55,112 bases of DNA from a virus. The position numbers were made by a program, and so were the translations under genes. Under the pieces are notes generated by a model, which was given only the letters and a program-made list of their open reading frames with translations, did not search any database and was not told the DNA's origin. This document shows positions 8,428 through 55,112 of this stretch, piece after piece. Positions within the stretch are counted from its first letter, which is position 1; every line of letters begins with the position of its first letter. The stretch lies in IMG/VR virus record IMGVR_UViG_3300044940_000164, positions 1-55,112 of that record, one strand, 5' to 3'.

Positions 8428-8663
8428 AAATTGAGCGGATGTATTACGACGCTATAATTTCAGGAAAAAAGACGTTCGAAATTCGGGTAAATGATCGAGA
8501 TTATCAGTCGGGAGATACCATTGAAATGTGGGCTACAGGTTTCCCCTTCCCGCCCATTCTTGCGACTATCGGATGGGTTTCGAACTATAAACAGACCCAG
8601 AACCACGTTGTATTTAGCCTACTGAACATAACTCAAGGAGATTTAGATGACTACCACTTTTAA
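8412..8663 (+). CDS. DUF3850/ASCH-like RNA-binding-fold protein
   Basis: 83 residues. H.LKIE..YYDAIISGKKTFEIRVNDRDYQSGDTIEMW matches the signature of the DUF3850 family (PUA/ASCH-like fold), in which a small beta barrel is thought to bind RNA or modified nucleotides; phage and plasmid members are common. The motif covers residues 1-45, nearly the whole conserved core, so the gene looks intact. AGGAG precedes it. Overlaps the ligase start by 17 bases, so both are expressed together. Confidence 0.75.
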   Translation: MHHRLKIERMYYDAIISGKKTFEIRVNDRDYQSGDTIEMWATGFPFPPILATIGWVSNYKQTQNHVVFSLLNITQGDLDDYHF

Positions 8664-9582
8664 GCCTATGCTCGCAGGAACTCTGACAGAAAAAGATTTC
8701 GATAAACTACAATTTCCAATGGTCGCCAGCCCGAAGATTGATGGTATCCGATGCATCATCCATCCAGAGCTGGGAGCTGTCACGCGCACTCTTAAGCCCA
8801 TACCGAATGATTTTATCCGAGAGGCACTCAACCGTCCCGAATTACATGGTTTCGACGGCGAGCTTGTTTTCGCGGACGATCACACAGATTTTCAGAAAAC
8901 TGTGTCTTCGGTTATGACGAAGGCAGGGCAACCGAAAGTGAAATACATTGCGTTCGACTATGTACCGACAGAAGTGCTTGATGGCGATCACGATTTTAGA
9001 CAGACGGTGGTCGGGCATGTTATTCGAGAAATCGAAAACCTAGGGTTCAAAGAAGGCGATATCCAGATCGAAAAAATCGAAAGTTATGTCGTTCGTAATA
9101 TAGAGGGGGTTTTAGAGTTGGAAGAAATTTTTCTGGCTAAAGGATACGAAGGTCTAATGTTGCGGAACCCCGATCGTCCTTACAAATATGGGCGCAGCTC
9201 AGTCAACCCTAACCAACAGCACCTATTGAAATTAAAGCGTTTCGTGGATGCTGAGGCGGTAGTAATCGGGTTCGAAGAGTGGATGCACAACGACAACGAA
9301 GCCACGATCAACGAACTAGGACACACTCAGCGCAGCTCTCATAAGGAAAACAAGCGCGGAGGAGAGAAATTAGGCAAATTTTTAGTCCGAGGAATCAACG
9401 GGAGATTCAAAGACGTAGAGTTCCCTATCGGCGGCGGCAATATTACCCATGCCGAAAGAAAGGAAATATGGGAGAACCAAGACCAGTATTTAGGGAAAAT
9501 TCTCACTTACAAATTTTTTGATGTAGCCACAAAAGATAAACCCCGTCATGGGAACTTCAAGTCCTTTCGGGAGGGTTTTTAG
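8647..9582 (+). CDS. ATP-dependent DNA ligase
   Basis: 311 residues, similar in plan to phage T7 ligase but shorter. It joins nicks by forming a lysyl-AMP. Motif I is KIDGIR with the probable nucleophile Lys30; motif III is FDGELVF (about residues 74-80), motif IV KGYEGLMLR (about 169-177) and motif V LLKLKRF. The C-terminal 90 residues fit an OB-fold domain, ending in a KDKPRHGNF-type tail. AAGGAG lies close before the ATG. It would seal Okazaki fragments made by the polymerase and primase encoded on the other strand. No truncation seen. Confidence 0.92.
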   Translation: MTTTFKPMLAGTLTEKDFDKLQFPMVASPKIDGIRCIIHPELGAVTRTLKPIPNDFIREALNRPELHGFDGELVFADDHTDFQKTVSSVMTKAGQPKVKYIAFDYVPTEVLDGDHDFRQTVVGHVIREIENLGFKEGDIQIEKIESYVVRNIEGVLELEEIFLAKGYEGLMLRNPDRPYKYGRSSVNPNQQHLLKLKRFVDAEAVVIGFEEWMHNDNEATINELGHTQRSSHKENKRGGEKLGKFLVRGINGRFKDVEFPIGGGNITHAERKEIWENQDQYLGKILTYKFFDVATKDKPRHGNFKSFREGF

Positions 9583-11683: not shown

Positions 11684-12130
11684 ATGCTAGATTATATACC
11701 TATTAAAAGATCACCTAACGGTCTTCACTTGCCGTTACCAGAATACGCGACGCCAGGAAGTGCGGGCTTGGATTTGATGGCGGCAATAGTACATCCTTTA
11801 TGCCTGAGACCCTTAGAGAGGTGGCTGGTTCCGACTGGTTTTTGTCTGGAGTTGCCGCAAGGCTATGAAGCCCAGATTCGTCCGAGGTCTGGGTTGGCTT
11901 TGAAGCATGGAATAACGTGTTTGAATAGCCCGGGCACGATCGACTCCGACTACAGAGGGCAAGTCCATGCCTTACTTATTAATCTTGGCACAGAGAATTT
12001 TACGATAGAACCCGGGATGCGAATAGCCCAGATGGTTATCGCGAAGTTTGAGCGAATTGGATGGAAAGAACTAGAAAAGCTCGATACTTCCTTGAGAGGT
12101 GAAGGCGGATTTGGGTCAACAGGAGAATAA
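11684..12130 (+). CDS. dut: dUTP diphosphatase (dUTPase)
   Basis: 148 residues, normal length for a trimeric dUTPase that hydrolyses dUTP to dUMP, supplying dTTP precursor and keeping uracil out of DNA. All five motifs are present: I PGSAGLDL (24-31), [13 protein letters not shown] (about 66-76), [15 protein letters not shown] (about 84-95), [11 protein letters not shown] and [11 protein letters not shown] at the C-terminus. The ATG follows GAGAGGAG. It belongs with the ligase and the DUF5664 gene in a nucleotide and DNA metabolism group. Confidence 0.95.
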
Positions 12131-51151: not shown

Positions 51152-53767
51152 TCATTTATTTCTATTTATGAACTGTATAACGCCTTTTTTGTTAATGTGG
51201 ACATCCTGCTTAGGGCGTCCGCGGGTACGAGTCACCTTGATCTCGAGCATCCCCTGATCCTGGCAATATTCCAAAACTTCGTCCGCTTTGCGCTTAGGAA
51301 ATCTTCTCAAGATAGTCTCTCTGCGGAGGTCACGCACGTTAATCACCGCATCCTGAATTTTATTCAAGTATAAGGCCACCGCTATAGCTTCCTCTTGGAT
51401 TACGCTGGTCTCGGCGTCTGCAAAAACGCGACGCTGCATGGGCATCAAATACTCTTCTCGAAACTGGATTGCCGCGTTCAAAGCCTCAGCACTCAACTCC
51501 TGCGGTGGTGGACCGTCGCCGAAAATGTCTATAGCCCACCACAAATGCTGCAAGATGTTCGCTACCCTCAGGATGTGTCCTGACGCTTTTCCGTAGGCGC
51601 CATGCAGCGGGCTTATCTCCTCTGCCGCTTCTTCTGCTGCCCGGTTTCGACGGGAGAGTTCTCTCGAATACGGGACGAATATCTGACGTGCGGCAGCGGA
51701 AAGCGGCATGGCGATCGGATCGCCGTTTTCGTCGCAGCATAGAGAACTGAGTCGCTCGAAAGCCATTTCCGTCAATCGCGAGTCCTGTATCTCACTTTCG
51801 TCGGCAGGATCGCAGTCCACATTCTCCGGCCATATCGGAATAATACGTGCGGCCAAACCGTCATTGCATGAGCGTGTAATTTCCTTCAAACGGTCAGGCT
51901 GGATACATCCCAATAAGCCGATAGAGAGATGCCGAACCCGAAGGCCTTTCCCTTCGTCCTTCACGCGGTCCGCCAAGTAGCTGCGGCCACCATAAGCTTC
52001 AATCCACATGCTGCGATCGCCACCGGATTTATTCTGGTAGCGGTCCATGCCACTGTACCAACCAGCAATTTCGTCTCGCACGTTCAGAAGACCGCGAGGG
52101 TTATCCAATGATAGTCGAGTGAGAGCTTCGCTGGTCGCGTCCATGACGATGGTGCGGCGAACTGTCGGCTTAGGCGGGATCATCGCTTCTTTCGGTAAAT
52201 TTGCAACATCACCCGTGAAATTCTTCTTGATGATCTTGGCTTTCTCCTTTGCTTCTTCCCATGCGCTATTTTGCTTGACCCAGTCATTATACCAGACTTT
52301 TTCTATTTTTTCCAAAGGCTCGAGCACATTGAAGAGCGACGGCGATTTGCGGGCAGACGGGTTCCCGATCAGCATCATCCACAAGATCGGCGGCTCTTTC
52401 CATTTTTTCTGAGGGCTAACTCGGCGGGCGTTCGCGATCAGAGATCCAGCGATCGCCAGTAACGATCCTGCGCTGTAATCAATCGGTGCGCCGCTGCCTT
52501 TTTGGAAATTCTCTAATTCGCTTTTCCAGAGCGGACCGAAAATGTCAATAGGGAAACTCGGCATCTTGACAGGAGTCGGTGCCGAGACTTCGACCTCCGC
52601 CGTTTCTTCTTCGGCATTTTCCTCGACTGTGTGTTCTTCCTCGGAGTCGTCCGCGTTATCGAAATCCGAAAAGTCCTCCGAGATTGCTTCAAAATTCGCC
52701 AACTCCAATTCCGCCGCCACCTCCGGGTCTTCGCGACACAGCAGTTTCATTTCGGCAAAAGATGGGAGATCCGGAAGATGATCGCTCAAGATTCCCGCGT
52801 CCAGTTCCCCAAAAAGATGAATGCGCACGAGATCAAAGGCGTTGACACATTTCCCGGCGCATGGATCGGTATGGTGATGACTGTAGAGGTACTGATCGTT
52901 GTCGTACACACATGCACCATCTGTCGATGTGCCCTTAAGATACGTCAGACGAGTGCCGCCACCGTCATAGGAACTCACAGCATAACAATCTGGAAGATAG
53001 CGCTCGATCGCTTCAAGCACGTCATAGGTACGACAAAATGCGCCGATCAGCCCGCTCTTTTGGGTCGGGTCTCCGAGCTTAACTCGGGACATCCCTGGGT
53101 GAACCGGGCCTTGTTGGTGCTTCTGGCTTACAGGGAGATTTTCTCCCTTTCTCCAATCGCCAACGTGAAAACTCAGATGTCTTTTTCCCGAAATGACCGA
53201 ACCCACGTTCTCCTGGTACACGAACTCACCGTTGCTGCACACGGTTGGTAGGTACATCATCTGAGCTACACGGAAACAGCATGGGTCTACTATGTCGATG
53301 GATTCCGTGGGGTCGGGAAGCAATTTCGCGGCGATGATCCGGGCGACCGCCTCGTATTCTTCAGCAGTTACCGATTCCCGCAACGGCACGATGATTCGCA
53401 CCCTGGGTTTCTGAGGAGTGTGCTTTCTCGTGGAGTGCATGACCCAGTCATATTCGGCGATCGGCCCATAGCCCCGTCTGATTCTTTTGAGCTGCTCCGG
53501 GGTGCATGTGTCGACGTCCAAGGCTACCACGCTGCGCTGATCGATCGAAGAACTCCTGCGGCGACCGTCGATAGACGTTCCGCCAAGAAAGAACCCCGAC
53601 TTCTTCTTCATCTCCGCCTGTTGGTCAGCAGGAAAGGCCAGAAACTCTTCGATAGTTTCTGGACTGACTGTCGGATTTTTTAGATATTCTTTCAATTTAT
53701 CGTAAGAGATCGTTCGGTTTCTGACCCGACCAAGATGCGATATATTGAACGCTAATTTGAGATCCAT
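51152..53767 (-). CDS. prim-pol/DUF3987 helicase-primase
   Basis: 871 residues. N-terminal AEP-like part: VVALDVDTCTPEQL (acidic pair), YDWVMHSTRKHTPQKPRVRIIVPL, DIVDPCCFRVAQMMYLP (about residues 75-175). Middle linker is acidic (about 350-410). C-terminal DUF3987 part: DIFGPLWKSELENFQKGSGAPIDYSAGSLLAIAGSLI, the P-loop MLIGNPSARKSPSLF in which GxPSxxKSP replaces the normal Walker A, and LLNVRDEIAGWYSGMDRY. Primes and unwinds at the fork, or loads at the origin. A winged-helix-like end (NVRDLRRETILRRFPKRKADEVLEYCQDQG). It lies close to the origin candidate. Confidence 0.85.
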   Translation of the reverse strand: MDLKLAFNISHLGRVRNRTISYDKLKEYLKNPTVSPETIEEFLAFPADQQAEMKKKSGFFLGGTSIDGRRRSSSIDQRSVVALDVDTCTPEQLKRIRRGYGPIAEYDWVMHSTRKHTPQKPRVRIIVPLRESVTAEEYEAVARIIAAKLLPDPTESIDIVDPCCFRVAQMMYLPTVCSNGEFVYQENVGSVISGKRHLSFHVGDWRKGENLPVSQKHQQGPVHPGMSRVKLGDPTQKSGLIGAFCRTYDVLEAIERYLPDCYAVSSYDGGGTRLTYLKGTSTDGACVYDNDQYLYSHHHTDPCAGKCVNAFDLVRIHLFGELDAGILSDHLPDLPSFAEMKLLCREDPEVAAELELANFEAISEDFSDFDNADDSEEEHTVEENAEEETAEVEVSAPTPVKMPSFPIDIFGPLWKSELENFQKGSGAPIDYSAGSLLAIAGSLIANARRVSPQKKWKEPPILWMMLIGNPSARKSPSLFNVLEPLEKIEKVWYNDWVKQNSAWEEAKEKAKIIKKNFTGDVANLPKEAMIPPKPTVRRTIVMDATSEALTRLSLDNPRGLLNVRDEIAGWYSGMDRYQNKSGGDRSMWIEAYGGRSYLADRVKDEGKGLRVRHLSIGLLGCIQPDRLKEITRSCNDGLAARIIPIWPENVDCDPADESEIQDSRLTEMAFERLSSLCCDENGDPIAMPLSAAARQIFVPYSRELSRRNRAAEEAAEEISPLHGAYGKASGHILRVANILQHLWWAIDIFGDGPPPQELSAEALNAAIQFREEYLMPMQRRVFADAETSVIQEEAIAVALYLNKIQDAVINVRDLRRETILRRFPKRKADEVLEYCQDQGMLEIKVTRTRGRPKQDVHINKKGVIQFINRNK

Positions 53768-53778
53768 GCACCCTCGCC

Positions 53779-54015
53779 TTATCTAGCGTAAAAGGGCATT
53801 AAGGTTTCTCTGGTCAACCGGGAACCCGGCAGATCGATGATCGCATCGACTTTCGCTGCGGGTAATCTACCTCTCCTTAACCAATTATGGAATGTGTGTG
53901 GCGATATCTCAAGATCCGCGCTGATTTTAGCTACATCGATATTCCATTTTGATTTCAAGCATCGGTGCTTTGGTAAATGGAAAAACAGTATGTTCGATAA
54001 GTCCTCATTGCTCAT
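53779..54015 (-). CDS. small HTH regulator or origin-binding protein
   Basis: 78 residues. Residues 25-55 (NIDVAKISADLEISPHTFHNWLRRGRLPAAKVDAI) form an HTH of Cro/Rha-like kind. GGGGATTT before ATG and its own promoter at 54037-54064. It could bind the palindromes at 54754 and 54820 or the iterons. Direct upstream neighbour of the primase gene (11 bases). Confidence 0.75.
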   Translation of the reverse strand: MSNEDLSNILFFHLPKHRCLKSKWNIDVAKISADLEISPHTFHNWLRRGRLPAAKVDAIIDLPGSRLTRETLMPFYAR

Positions 54016-54036
54016 AAATCCCCTTCCCTCCAGATA

Positions 54037-54064
54037 GTATTATCACTTTTCGAAAAAATGTCAA
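54037..54064 (-). promoter_or_regulatory. promoter for the HTH-primase genes
   Basis: Minus strand TTGACA (54064-54059), 16 bases, TGATAATAC giving an extended -10 TAATAC (54042-54037). Between the boxes lies TTTTCGAAAA, a 10-bp palindrome suited to an operator. The -10 is imperfect. Confidence 0.55.
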
Positions 54065-54239
54065 ACATTATATCGCAAGCTTAGGTGATGGCCGATACTG
54101 GCAGCTCTACGAAATGAGGGGGAAGGAAGAAGGTGCCCGCGTAATCGACCATCCTCTTAAACCTAAAGGATCTTAAGGGTTCTGTCAACTATAAAATACA
54201 GGACCCACCGGGTGATCTGGAACTTCGTCCCGCATCGGC
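54065..54239. other. region without supported gene; relic coding signal
   Basis: No complete gene. On the plus strand two frames read like protein: LGDGRYWQLYEMRGKEEGARVIDHPLKP to a stop at 54176, then in another frame KDLKGSVNYKIQDPPGDLELRPASAEKIKF... They would join by a single frameshift near 54170 but I see no start codon. It may be a decayed gene. Confidence 0.3.
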
Positions 54240-54361
54240 CGAGAAAATAAAATTTTCGACGCACAAAATTTCTTTGTTACTGATCTGTTACTCGAAGGGT
54301 CGAGAAAATAAAATTTTCGACGCACAAAATTTCTTTGTTACTGATCTGTTACTCGAAGGGT
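54240..54361. repeat. 61-bp perfect tandem duplication
   Basis: 54240-54300 is repeated as 54301-54361. Each copy holds AAAATTTTCG-type AT-rich sequence and GTTACTGATCTGTTAC, with GTTAC twice in direct orientation. It is one of three repeat systems in this region. Confidence 0.92.
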
Positions 54362-54376
54362 CGAATTTTACCCTCG

Positions 54377-54708
54377 ACTTTTGGCACAACTTTTGTCACC
54401 ACTTTTGTCACAAAATTTCGTCTTTCAGACATCAAGCAAACTGCGGGGTTGAGACCTTTTGTCACTTTTGTCACTTTTGTCACAGCTATAAATAAAAAAA
54501 AATCTGACTCACCAAGAAAAAACGTCTATAGAGATTCTACTATAAGTAGTAGTATTAAAAAACGGGTCTATAGTCCGCTTGGAAGACATTTTTCTATACC
54601 CCTGTGACAAAAGTGACAAAAGTGACAAAAGGTCTCAACCCCAGCAAAACTGCGGTGTTCGGAAATCGAATTTTTGTGACAAAAGTGTGACAAAAGTGGT
54701 GACAAAAG
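54377..54708. other. candidate replication origin with iterons
   Basis: The decamer CTTTTGTCAC occurs at 54390, 54402, 54456, 54465 and 54474 (last three with a 9-base step), plus a variant at 54378. Its reverse complement GTGACAAAAG occurs at 54604, 54613, 54622, 54676, 54687 and 54699. The clusters face each other and are flanked by an inverted match (GTGACAAAAG followed by GTCTCAACCCC on the right). Between them, 54486-54600 is AT-rich (TATAAATAAAAAAAAAT, ACTATAAGTAGTAGTATT). Iterons plus an AT-rich core next to the primase gene is the plan of a replication origin. A promoter-operator region is the alternative. Confidence 0.65.
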
Positions 54709-54753
54709 TCCATTTTCTGAAAATCAGACCAAAATCACAATATTTCGTAATCA

Positions 54754-54768
54754 GTAACATTTTGTTAC
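54754..54768. promoter_or_regulatory. 15-bp palindrome, copy 1
   Basis: GTAACATTTTGTTAC, with GTAAC and GTTAC arms around ATTTT. Identical to 54820-54834. Operator-like. Confidence 0.65.
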
Positions 54769-54819
54769 AACCACAATTTTGCAACTTAAGCTAGAAAATT
54801 TTCGCGTATTTTTGCGTGT

Positions 54820-54834
54820 GTAACATTTTGTTAC
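54820..54834. promoter_or_regulatory. 15-bp palindrome, copy 2
   Basis: Second exact copy of GTAACATTTTGTTAC, 66 bases after the first. A half-site GTAACA follows at 54861. The same GTTAC core is present twice in each 61-bp repeat, so a single dimeric regulator may bind the whole region. Confidence 0.65.
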
Positions 54835-54853
54835 TGAGCCTCTTATTTACTGA

Positions 54854-54991
54854 CTATTCTGTAACAAAACCCGGTAAGCTATCTTCTCCGACCAAATCCT
54901 CAGTGTTACTTGAAGCCTGATCTCCTGCGGCGATCTTCGCGCTACAAATTTCCGCGATTACTCCGTGTCTGAGATCCTGGGATCGTTTCAT
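54854..54991 (-). CDS. possible small protein at window edge
   Basis: 45-residue frame on the minus strand from the ATG at 54991 (MKRSQDLRHGVIAEICSAKIAAGDQASS..LVGEDSLPGFVTE). The composition looks natural, but the start follows nine C (plus strand G, 54992-55000) and no good ribosome site. Upstream frames of the same strand carry stops. Beyond it, 54992-55112 has open frames on both strands and nothing I can assign. Confidence 0.3.
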   Translation of the reverse strand: MKRSQDLRHGVIAEICSAKIAAGDQASSNTEDLVGEDSLPGFVTE

Positions 54992-55112
54992 GGGGGGGGG
55001 CCTTAAGCGACCCAGAAAGTGCGTGTACGCCGCAGATTCCCTGGACTACTATTTTCGACAGAGGCTCATAGCGGAGCCAAAAAATTTTCTTACGCTGCGG
55101 ATCTGCGACCCC

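Follow-up and report, generated by a model that had tools for sequence, protein, structure and literature searches.

What is a pair of mirror-image repeat arrays doing beside the replication genes of a tailed phage, and which protein reads them? The window analysed here, the whole 55,112-nucleotide stretch of IMG/VR virus record IMGVR_UViG_3300044940_000164, comes from a tailed phage. The terminase and DNA polymerase of this phage (both about 48-49% identical) have their nearest counterparts in Casjensviridae, for example Ruegeria phage DSS3-P1. Close to the right end of the window lies a dyad spanning 331 bp, in which an AT-rich middle separates two sets of six iterons. We consider it quite probable that this dyad is the phage replication origin and that it is read by the winged helix of the nearby DUF3987 primase-helicase, acting as two opposed rings. 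A sequence-only reading had proposed a replication origin here, and comparison with other elements lends that proposal good support.

The decamer CTTTTGTCAC occurs exactly on the plus strand at 54390, 54402, 54456, 54465 and 54474, and its complement GTGACAAAAG at 54604, 54613, 54622, 54676, 54687 and 54699, confirming all eleven decamers (five plus six, partly at 9-base steps) that the sequence-only reading had listed; a near-copy it had passed over, CTTTTGGCAC at 54378, differs from CTTTTGTCAC by one mismatch and makes the array six plus six. Start-to-start steps are 12, 12, 54, 9 and 9 in the left array and 9, 9, 54, 11 and 12 in the right, and the six mirror pairs share nearly one centre (54543 for two, 54543.5 for four). 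When the 170 bp to the left and right of 54543.5 are compared, 98 positions pair, against a mean of 42.4 (standard deviation 5.8) over the whole window and 70 at the next unrelated centre; comparable symmetry is found nowhere else in the window. Setting aside shifted frames of the iteron repeat, no other decamer exceeds 5 copies in the 55 kb, and the combination of a 9-bp step with inverted copies forms a cluster only at the dyad, with one isolated match at 9067. The word TTTGTYAC is similarly confined, with 16 copies between 54016 and 55112 (decamers counted) and 1 in the rest of the window. An inverted match outside the iterons had also been seen correctly: GGGGTTGAGACC and GGTCTCAACCCC lie inside a perfect 39-bp inverted repeat formed by the inner arms. 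The core between the arrays (120 bp) is AT-rich as claimed, though moderately so, at 68% AT against 54% for the window. The parts of the dyad and its proposed reader are as follows.

51152 to 53767, minus strand: primase-helicase with DUF3987 and a C-terminal winged helix, proposed iteron reader
54378 to 54411, plus strand: left outer iterons, CTTTTGGCAC at 54378 and CTTTTGTCAC at 54390 and 54402, 12-bp step
54445 to 54483: left arm of the 39-bp inverted repeat, GGGGTTGAGACC and the inner iterons
54456 to 54483, plus strand: left inner iterons, three CTTTTGTCAC, 9-bp step
54484 to 54603: AT-rich core, 68% AT, proposed melting region
54537 to 54549: 13-bp palindrome CTACTATAAGTAG at the exact dyad centre
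54604 to 54631, minus strand: right inner iterons, three CTTTTGTCAC, 9-bp step
54604 to 54642: right arm of the 39-bp inverted repeat, GGTCTCAACCCC included; 54621-54638 (AGTGACAAAAGGTCTCAA) is identical in island L275
54676 to 54708, minus strand: right outer iterons, three CTTTTGTCAC, 11- and 12-bp steps

A strong hairpin in the core was considered and rejected (folding is weak, z -1.9), and an Rfam search gave no match.

The candidate reader is a protein of 871 amino acids in which DUF3987 is the sole Pfam family found (3.9e-48), with PHROG primase/helicase matches in its N-terminal half and, in the predicted structure, a helix-helix-strand-strand fold at the C terminus that would form a winged helix. 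A model of DUF3987 plus winged helix best matches MCM replicative helicases (E 2.5e-6), the model being of low confidence and the likeness distant (predicted local distance difference test score 61, template-modelling score about 0.3-0.4, 10-14% identity); the DUF3987 sequence gave no significant match to solved structures, and a scan of viral contigs with the single protein yielded no close relatives.

Evidence independent of the motif came from DUF3987 genes gathered by protein family alone from phages, plasmids, random genomes and E. coli K-12, each scored for a 7-mer that recurs after exactly 9 bp in the 400 bp following the stop codon. Such a word follows 26 of 39 genes, 18 of which also have an inverted copy, against 3 of 31 upstream controls and 1 of 31 coding controls, neither with any inverted copy (0/31 each); Fisher tests give 1.6e-6 and 1.5e-8. 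Markov shuffles return a mean of 1.4 and a maximum of 4 where 26 of 39 were observed, and repeat distances of 8 and 10 bp yield 4 and 2 cases. The pattern held in a second set, drawn from previously unused genomes by similarity to the window protein, in which 8 of 11 genes have the 9-bp word and 7 of 11 the inverted copy, compared with 0/11 and 0/11. The words themselves differ from element to element (TGCTAAAGt, TGCGGAAAc, GGTTTTGAa, AACTGACAg, TGGCACGCt, GCTATTCCt, CGCACAATt). The window resembles this proposed class both in its protein, which has DUF3987 and the C-terminal winged helix, and in its DNA, where the 9-bp word with nearby inverted copies is present in both inner triplets. Two phages initially taken for DUF3987 members, StAB and NatCom_42594, proved to encode VapE-type helicases and were left out of the final counts; in both, as in S-ESS1, short repeated words also lie 3' of the helicase, so that the layout is common to more than one helicase family. 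Short repeats directly 3' of VapE-type and PrimPol/D5-type helicases were seen at L065:8455-8573, L066:8340-8500, L063:1-484 and L145:6593-6684.

The iteron word of the window was also traced to other loci with the 18-mer TTTTGTCACTTTTGTCAC, which picked out 7 loci among viral contigs and, from bacterial genomes taken one per species, 96 stretches, of which 80 were retained. Several loci with the same word have an opposed layout like the window's. One of them, the 5.8-kb viral contig L075, has three plus four copies around an AT-rich core; it also resembles the window in having an additional unique inverted repeat (AATCAAGGCTTT and AAAGCCTTGATT) outside the inner iterons. A profile built for this analysis places DUF3987 genes near the array in L075, L144, L115, L137, L147 and L070, and in the first four of these the array lies immediately 3' of the gene; counted over the DNA examined, DUF3987 occurs at 6 of 29 loci with at least three copies of the word as against 1 of 58 with two. 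At L145, a PrimPol/D5 helicase gene stops a few bases ahead of the array. A 27-mer of three tandem iterons had no match in other viral contigs, nor did the origin region match anything in the phage collection.

Whether the array belongs to the phage backbone or to the helicase can be read from the relatives. In the corresponding slot, backbone relatives carry a VapE-type helicase (DSS3-P1, S-ESS1), a D5-type helicase (AchV4) or a PrimPol protein with a weak DUF3987 match (pCB2051-A); the GTGACAAAA array was not found in the regions read of backbone-sharing phages, and the spot upstream of the HTH (helix-turn-helix) gene holds no iterons in DSS3-P1, S-ESS1 and pCB2051-A. These phages nonetheless keep a small gene immediately upstream of the one for the primase-helicase, and three of four such genes look HTH-like. 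The word is carried, in turn, by the integrase-bearing element L115, whose helicase is 37% identical to the window's over 483 amino acids. The L251/L275 island was found by protein and encodes a primpol-DUF3987 protein of 32% identity together with an integrase-like frame; in L275 the 18-mer AGTGACAAAAGGTCTCAA, which takes in one inner iteron together with the inverted repeat next to it, stands right after the helicase gene and is identical to window positions 54621-54638. We regard this island as stronger support than L115 and L144, since it was reached through the protein and not through the word. The sequence-only reading had named a lack of conservation of the decamers in relatives as a refutation, and on this point the outcome divides: they are not kept in backbone relatives with other helicases, and they recur, in unrelated phages and islands, beside related helicases. 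As far as these comparisons reach, the array follows helicase type, and it does so even where no small gene has been identified nearby. The helicase and its origin word seem to be passed between phages and islands as one cassette, without regard to the virion genes.

Several observations weigh against this interpretation. No recognisable array surrounds L278 and L279, which at 35% identity are among the closest homologues and the nearest alphaproteobacterial ones. Of the surveyed DUF3987 genes, 13 of 39 lack a 9-bp word, among them E. coli K-12 yfjI and that of phage Shfl1, which were tried as class members and have no 9-bp array. The window's own array sits 5' of the HTH/primase-helicase operon, whereas arrays of the sampled class come immediately 3' of the helicase; the gap between the 3' end of the primase-helicase gene and the next gene measures only 69 bp. 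At L148, L077, L119 and L156 the arrays have ordinary genes as neighbours, and the DNA examined there contains no helicase. Finally, one point in favour of the interpretation, that the winged helix most similar to the window's is that of L144 (z 14), which carries the same word, is partly circular because L115 and L144 were picked up through the word search. In the two Ruminococcus loci, L148:2600-3200 and L077:5505-5680, opposed GTGACAAAA arrays and long inverted repeats lie between ordinary genes; they may represent orphan origins or remnants of elements since lost, or may belong to a repeat family of a different kind. At L156:78-398 (Prevotellaceae), an outer GTGACAAAA array and an inner 9-bp repeat of the TTGCAACTT type, both opposed, share one AT-rich core.

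Leftward of the dyad, all on the minus strand, run the HTH gene, the primase-helicase, an exonuclease, a single-stranded DNA-binding protein and a family-A DNA polymerase, followed by packaging and structural genes; the replication operon thus adjoins the array and is transcribed away from it. The array lies 610 bp 5' of the primase-helicase start, in keeping with the earlier estimate of some 600 bases from the prim-pol gene. The remaining features of this region are listed here.

53779 to 54015, minus strand: 78-amino-acid HTH protein, HTH_17 match below cut-off, probably a regulator
54036 to 54064, minus strand: promoter-like TTGACA-17-AATACT facing the HTH/primase-helicase operon, a consensus match only
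54237 to 54358, plus strand: two tandem 61-bp repeats with TTTGTTAC variants
54754 to 54834: two GTAACATTTTGTTAC palindromes, a variant of the iteron word

The variant TTTGTTAC has five copies, all within the same non-coding kilobase (54016-55112) and partly inside the tandem repeats and the palindromes, which are possibly accessory initiator sites or operators. Cumulative GC skew, a check suggested along with the origin, reaches its minimum at the array end of the contig and its maximum around 12-18 kb, a profile that fits an origin at the array end and is confounded by gene direction. The contig ends about 400 bp right of the array, and its far left end carries rightward small genes, a region that also encodes an ATP-dependent DNA ligase (8647-9582) and a dUTPase (11684-12130). 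The genome is probably incomplete, given that the contig starts within an open frame (1-117) and lacks an end repeat; that frame, 38 amino acids with no Pfam match, resembles by eye the C terminus of ArdC-like proteins. A run of G at 54994-55001, in a stretch without convincing open reading frames, may mark an assembly difficulty.

The identity of the reader is the point on which the nearest rival differs: the dyad would be an origin whose iterons are bound by the HTH protein encoded at 53779-54015, or by some other early protein, with the helicase recruited indirectly. The HTH gene is directly upstream of the primase-helicase and closest to the array, and related phages have a small gene in the same slot; since they keep that gene without the array, and since the array tracks helicase type even in elements with no small gene identified nearby, the HTH protein is disfavoured and we hold this version unlikely. 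The earlier suggestion that an initiator binds both arrays accordingly survives as likely, with the DUF3987 winged helix and not the 78-amino-acid protein as the best candidate. A transcriptional regulator controlling divergent promoters from an operator array is a distinctly improbable explanation of the decamers. The promoter-like site at 54064-54036 does face the operon, and beyond the decamers lie GTAACATTTTGTTAC palindrome pairs and TTTGTTAC variants that resemble operators, but the promoter is single and weak, none lies within the dyad, and the layout recurs with many words 3' of helicase genes, where no common promoter arrangement would be expected.

Two further explanations dispense with replication initiation altogether. 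Some parC loci have clustered direct repeats on either side of a spacer, the terminase of this phage is lambda GpA-like and the array is near the contig end, all of which could speak for a partition centromere or a packaging site (cos/pac); yet no ParA/ParM/TubZ-type gene turned up among the window proteins scanned, a subset of the open reading frames, and in plasmids and islands such arrays adjoin replication helicases, not terminases, so that we give this possibility very little credence. Less probable again is an inverted-repeat mobile element, akin to a miniature inverted-repeat transposable element, or its remnant. The perfect 39-bp arms would suit it, as would the Ruminococcus loci L148 and L077, where ordinary genes surround long inverted repeats that contain the word, but the mirror-register iterons extend beyond the arms, the window holds one copy, the three-iteron 27-mer is absent from other viral contigs, and cores and flanks vary between loci.

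An origin read by the primase-helicase also has close architectural precedents. Origins of phage-inducible chromosomal islands (PICIs) always have two iteron sets around an AT-rich region, and one has been proven to require rep and ori (PMC6092414); the supposition that symmetry between two arrays is less usual does not hold for this class: in PICI satellites it is the rule, and inverted copies accompany 18 of 39 DUF3987 genes. In Staphylococcus aureus pathogenicity islands (SaPIs), the C-terminal domain of Rep acts on iterons directly downstream of its gene, apparently as two hexamers (PMC7581432). DUF3987 in PrimPol-PV1 primase-helicases was predicted to be a helicase by Kazlauskas et al. 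2018, and PrimQH C-terminal winged helices were proposed to recognise origins (PMC5862659); the passages found there describe no cognate origin for DUF3987, for which candidate origins and a 9-bp step are supplied here. The window shares with SaPI/PICI origins the two iteron sets, six plus six about one centre, around an AT-rich core, and we propose that by analogy it may work like them. It is not filed among them because its array lies 5' of the operon and not directly 3' of a rep gene, its helicase is of the DUF3987 family whereas their Rep proteins are of DUF927 or D5/Primase_Cterm type, and the phage, unlike the satellites, has virion genes of its own; the inner iterons of the window also differ in their 9-bp step. 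Phage P4 alpha unites primase and helicase with an origin-binding winged helix in a single polypeptide, and the P4 origin has type I iterons; the window differs in helicase family and word, and the likeness is by description only. The MCM double hexamer offers a further proposed analogy, in which a C-terminal winged helix comes after the AAA+ core and two opposed rings sit at a symmetric origin, although MCM loading depends on separate factors instead of iterons. The architecture is known from SaPI/PICI; new here are its association with DUF3987, the 9-bp spacing and a location 5' of the operon. A literature search that left most subscription journals outside its reach returned no paper joining DUF3987 with iteron, YfjI with replication origin or Casjensviridae with replication origin, and with coverage so limited, priority for the DUF3987-iteron link cannot be claimed.

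Drawing together the SaPI/PICI literature, DUF3987 and the MCM-like model, we propose two opposed rings on the mirror arrays. Within the observed frame of symmetric arrays and their coding context, the C-terminal winged helix of the primase-helicase would bind the iterons, each 9-bp step of the inner triplets taking one protomer, and two helicase rings in opposite orientation would assemble over the two arrays. The rings would then melt the AT-rich core and depart in opposite directions, establishing bidirectional forks, while the helicase's own N-terminal primase region would prime for the phage family-A DNA polymerase and single-stranded DNA-binding protein. With somewhat less assurance we lean towards a broader generalisation, that DUF3987 proteins, which are frequent in phages, plasmids and islands, are a wide class of MCM-like origin-binding initiators, each with its own 9-bp-step word in two opposed arrays on which a pair of facing rings would sit, the winged helix setting the word and helicase plus origin moving as a cassette among phages and chromosomal islands.

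A repeat in one phage contig would thereby become a rule that predicts origins and their reader across DUF3987 phages, plasmids and genomic islands, and DUF3987, still of "unknown function" in Pfam, would gain a specific, testable role. Work on opposed helicase rings has so far centred on eukaryotic MCM and T-antigen-like viral systems, and the dyad suggests a simple bacterial model for two such rings at a symmetric origin.
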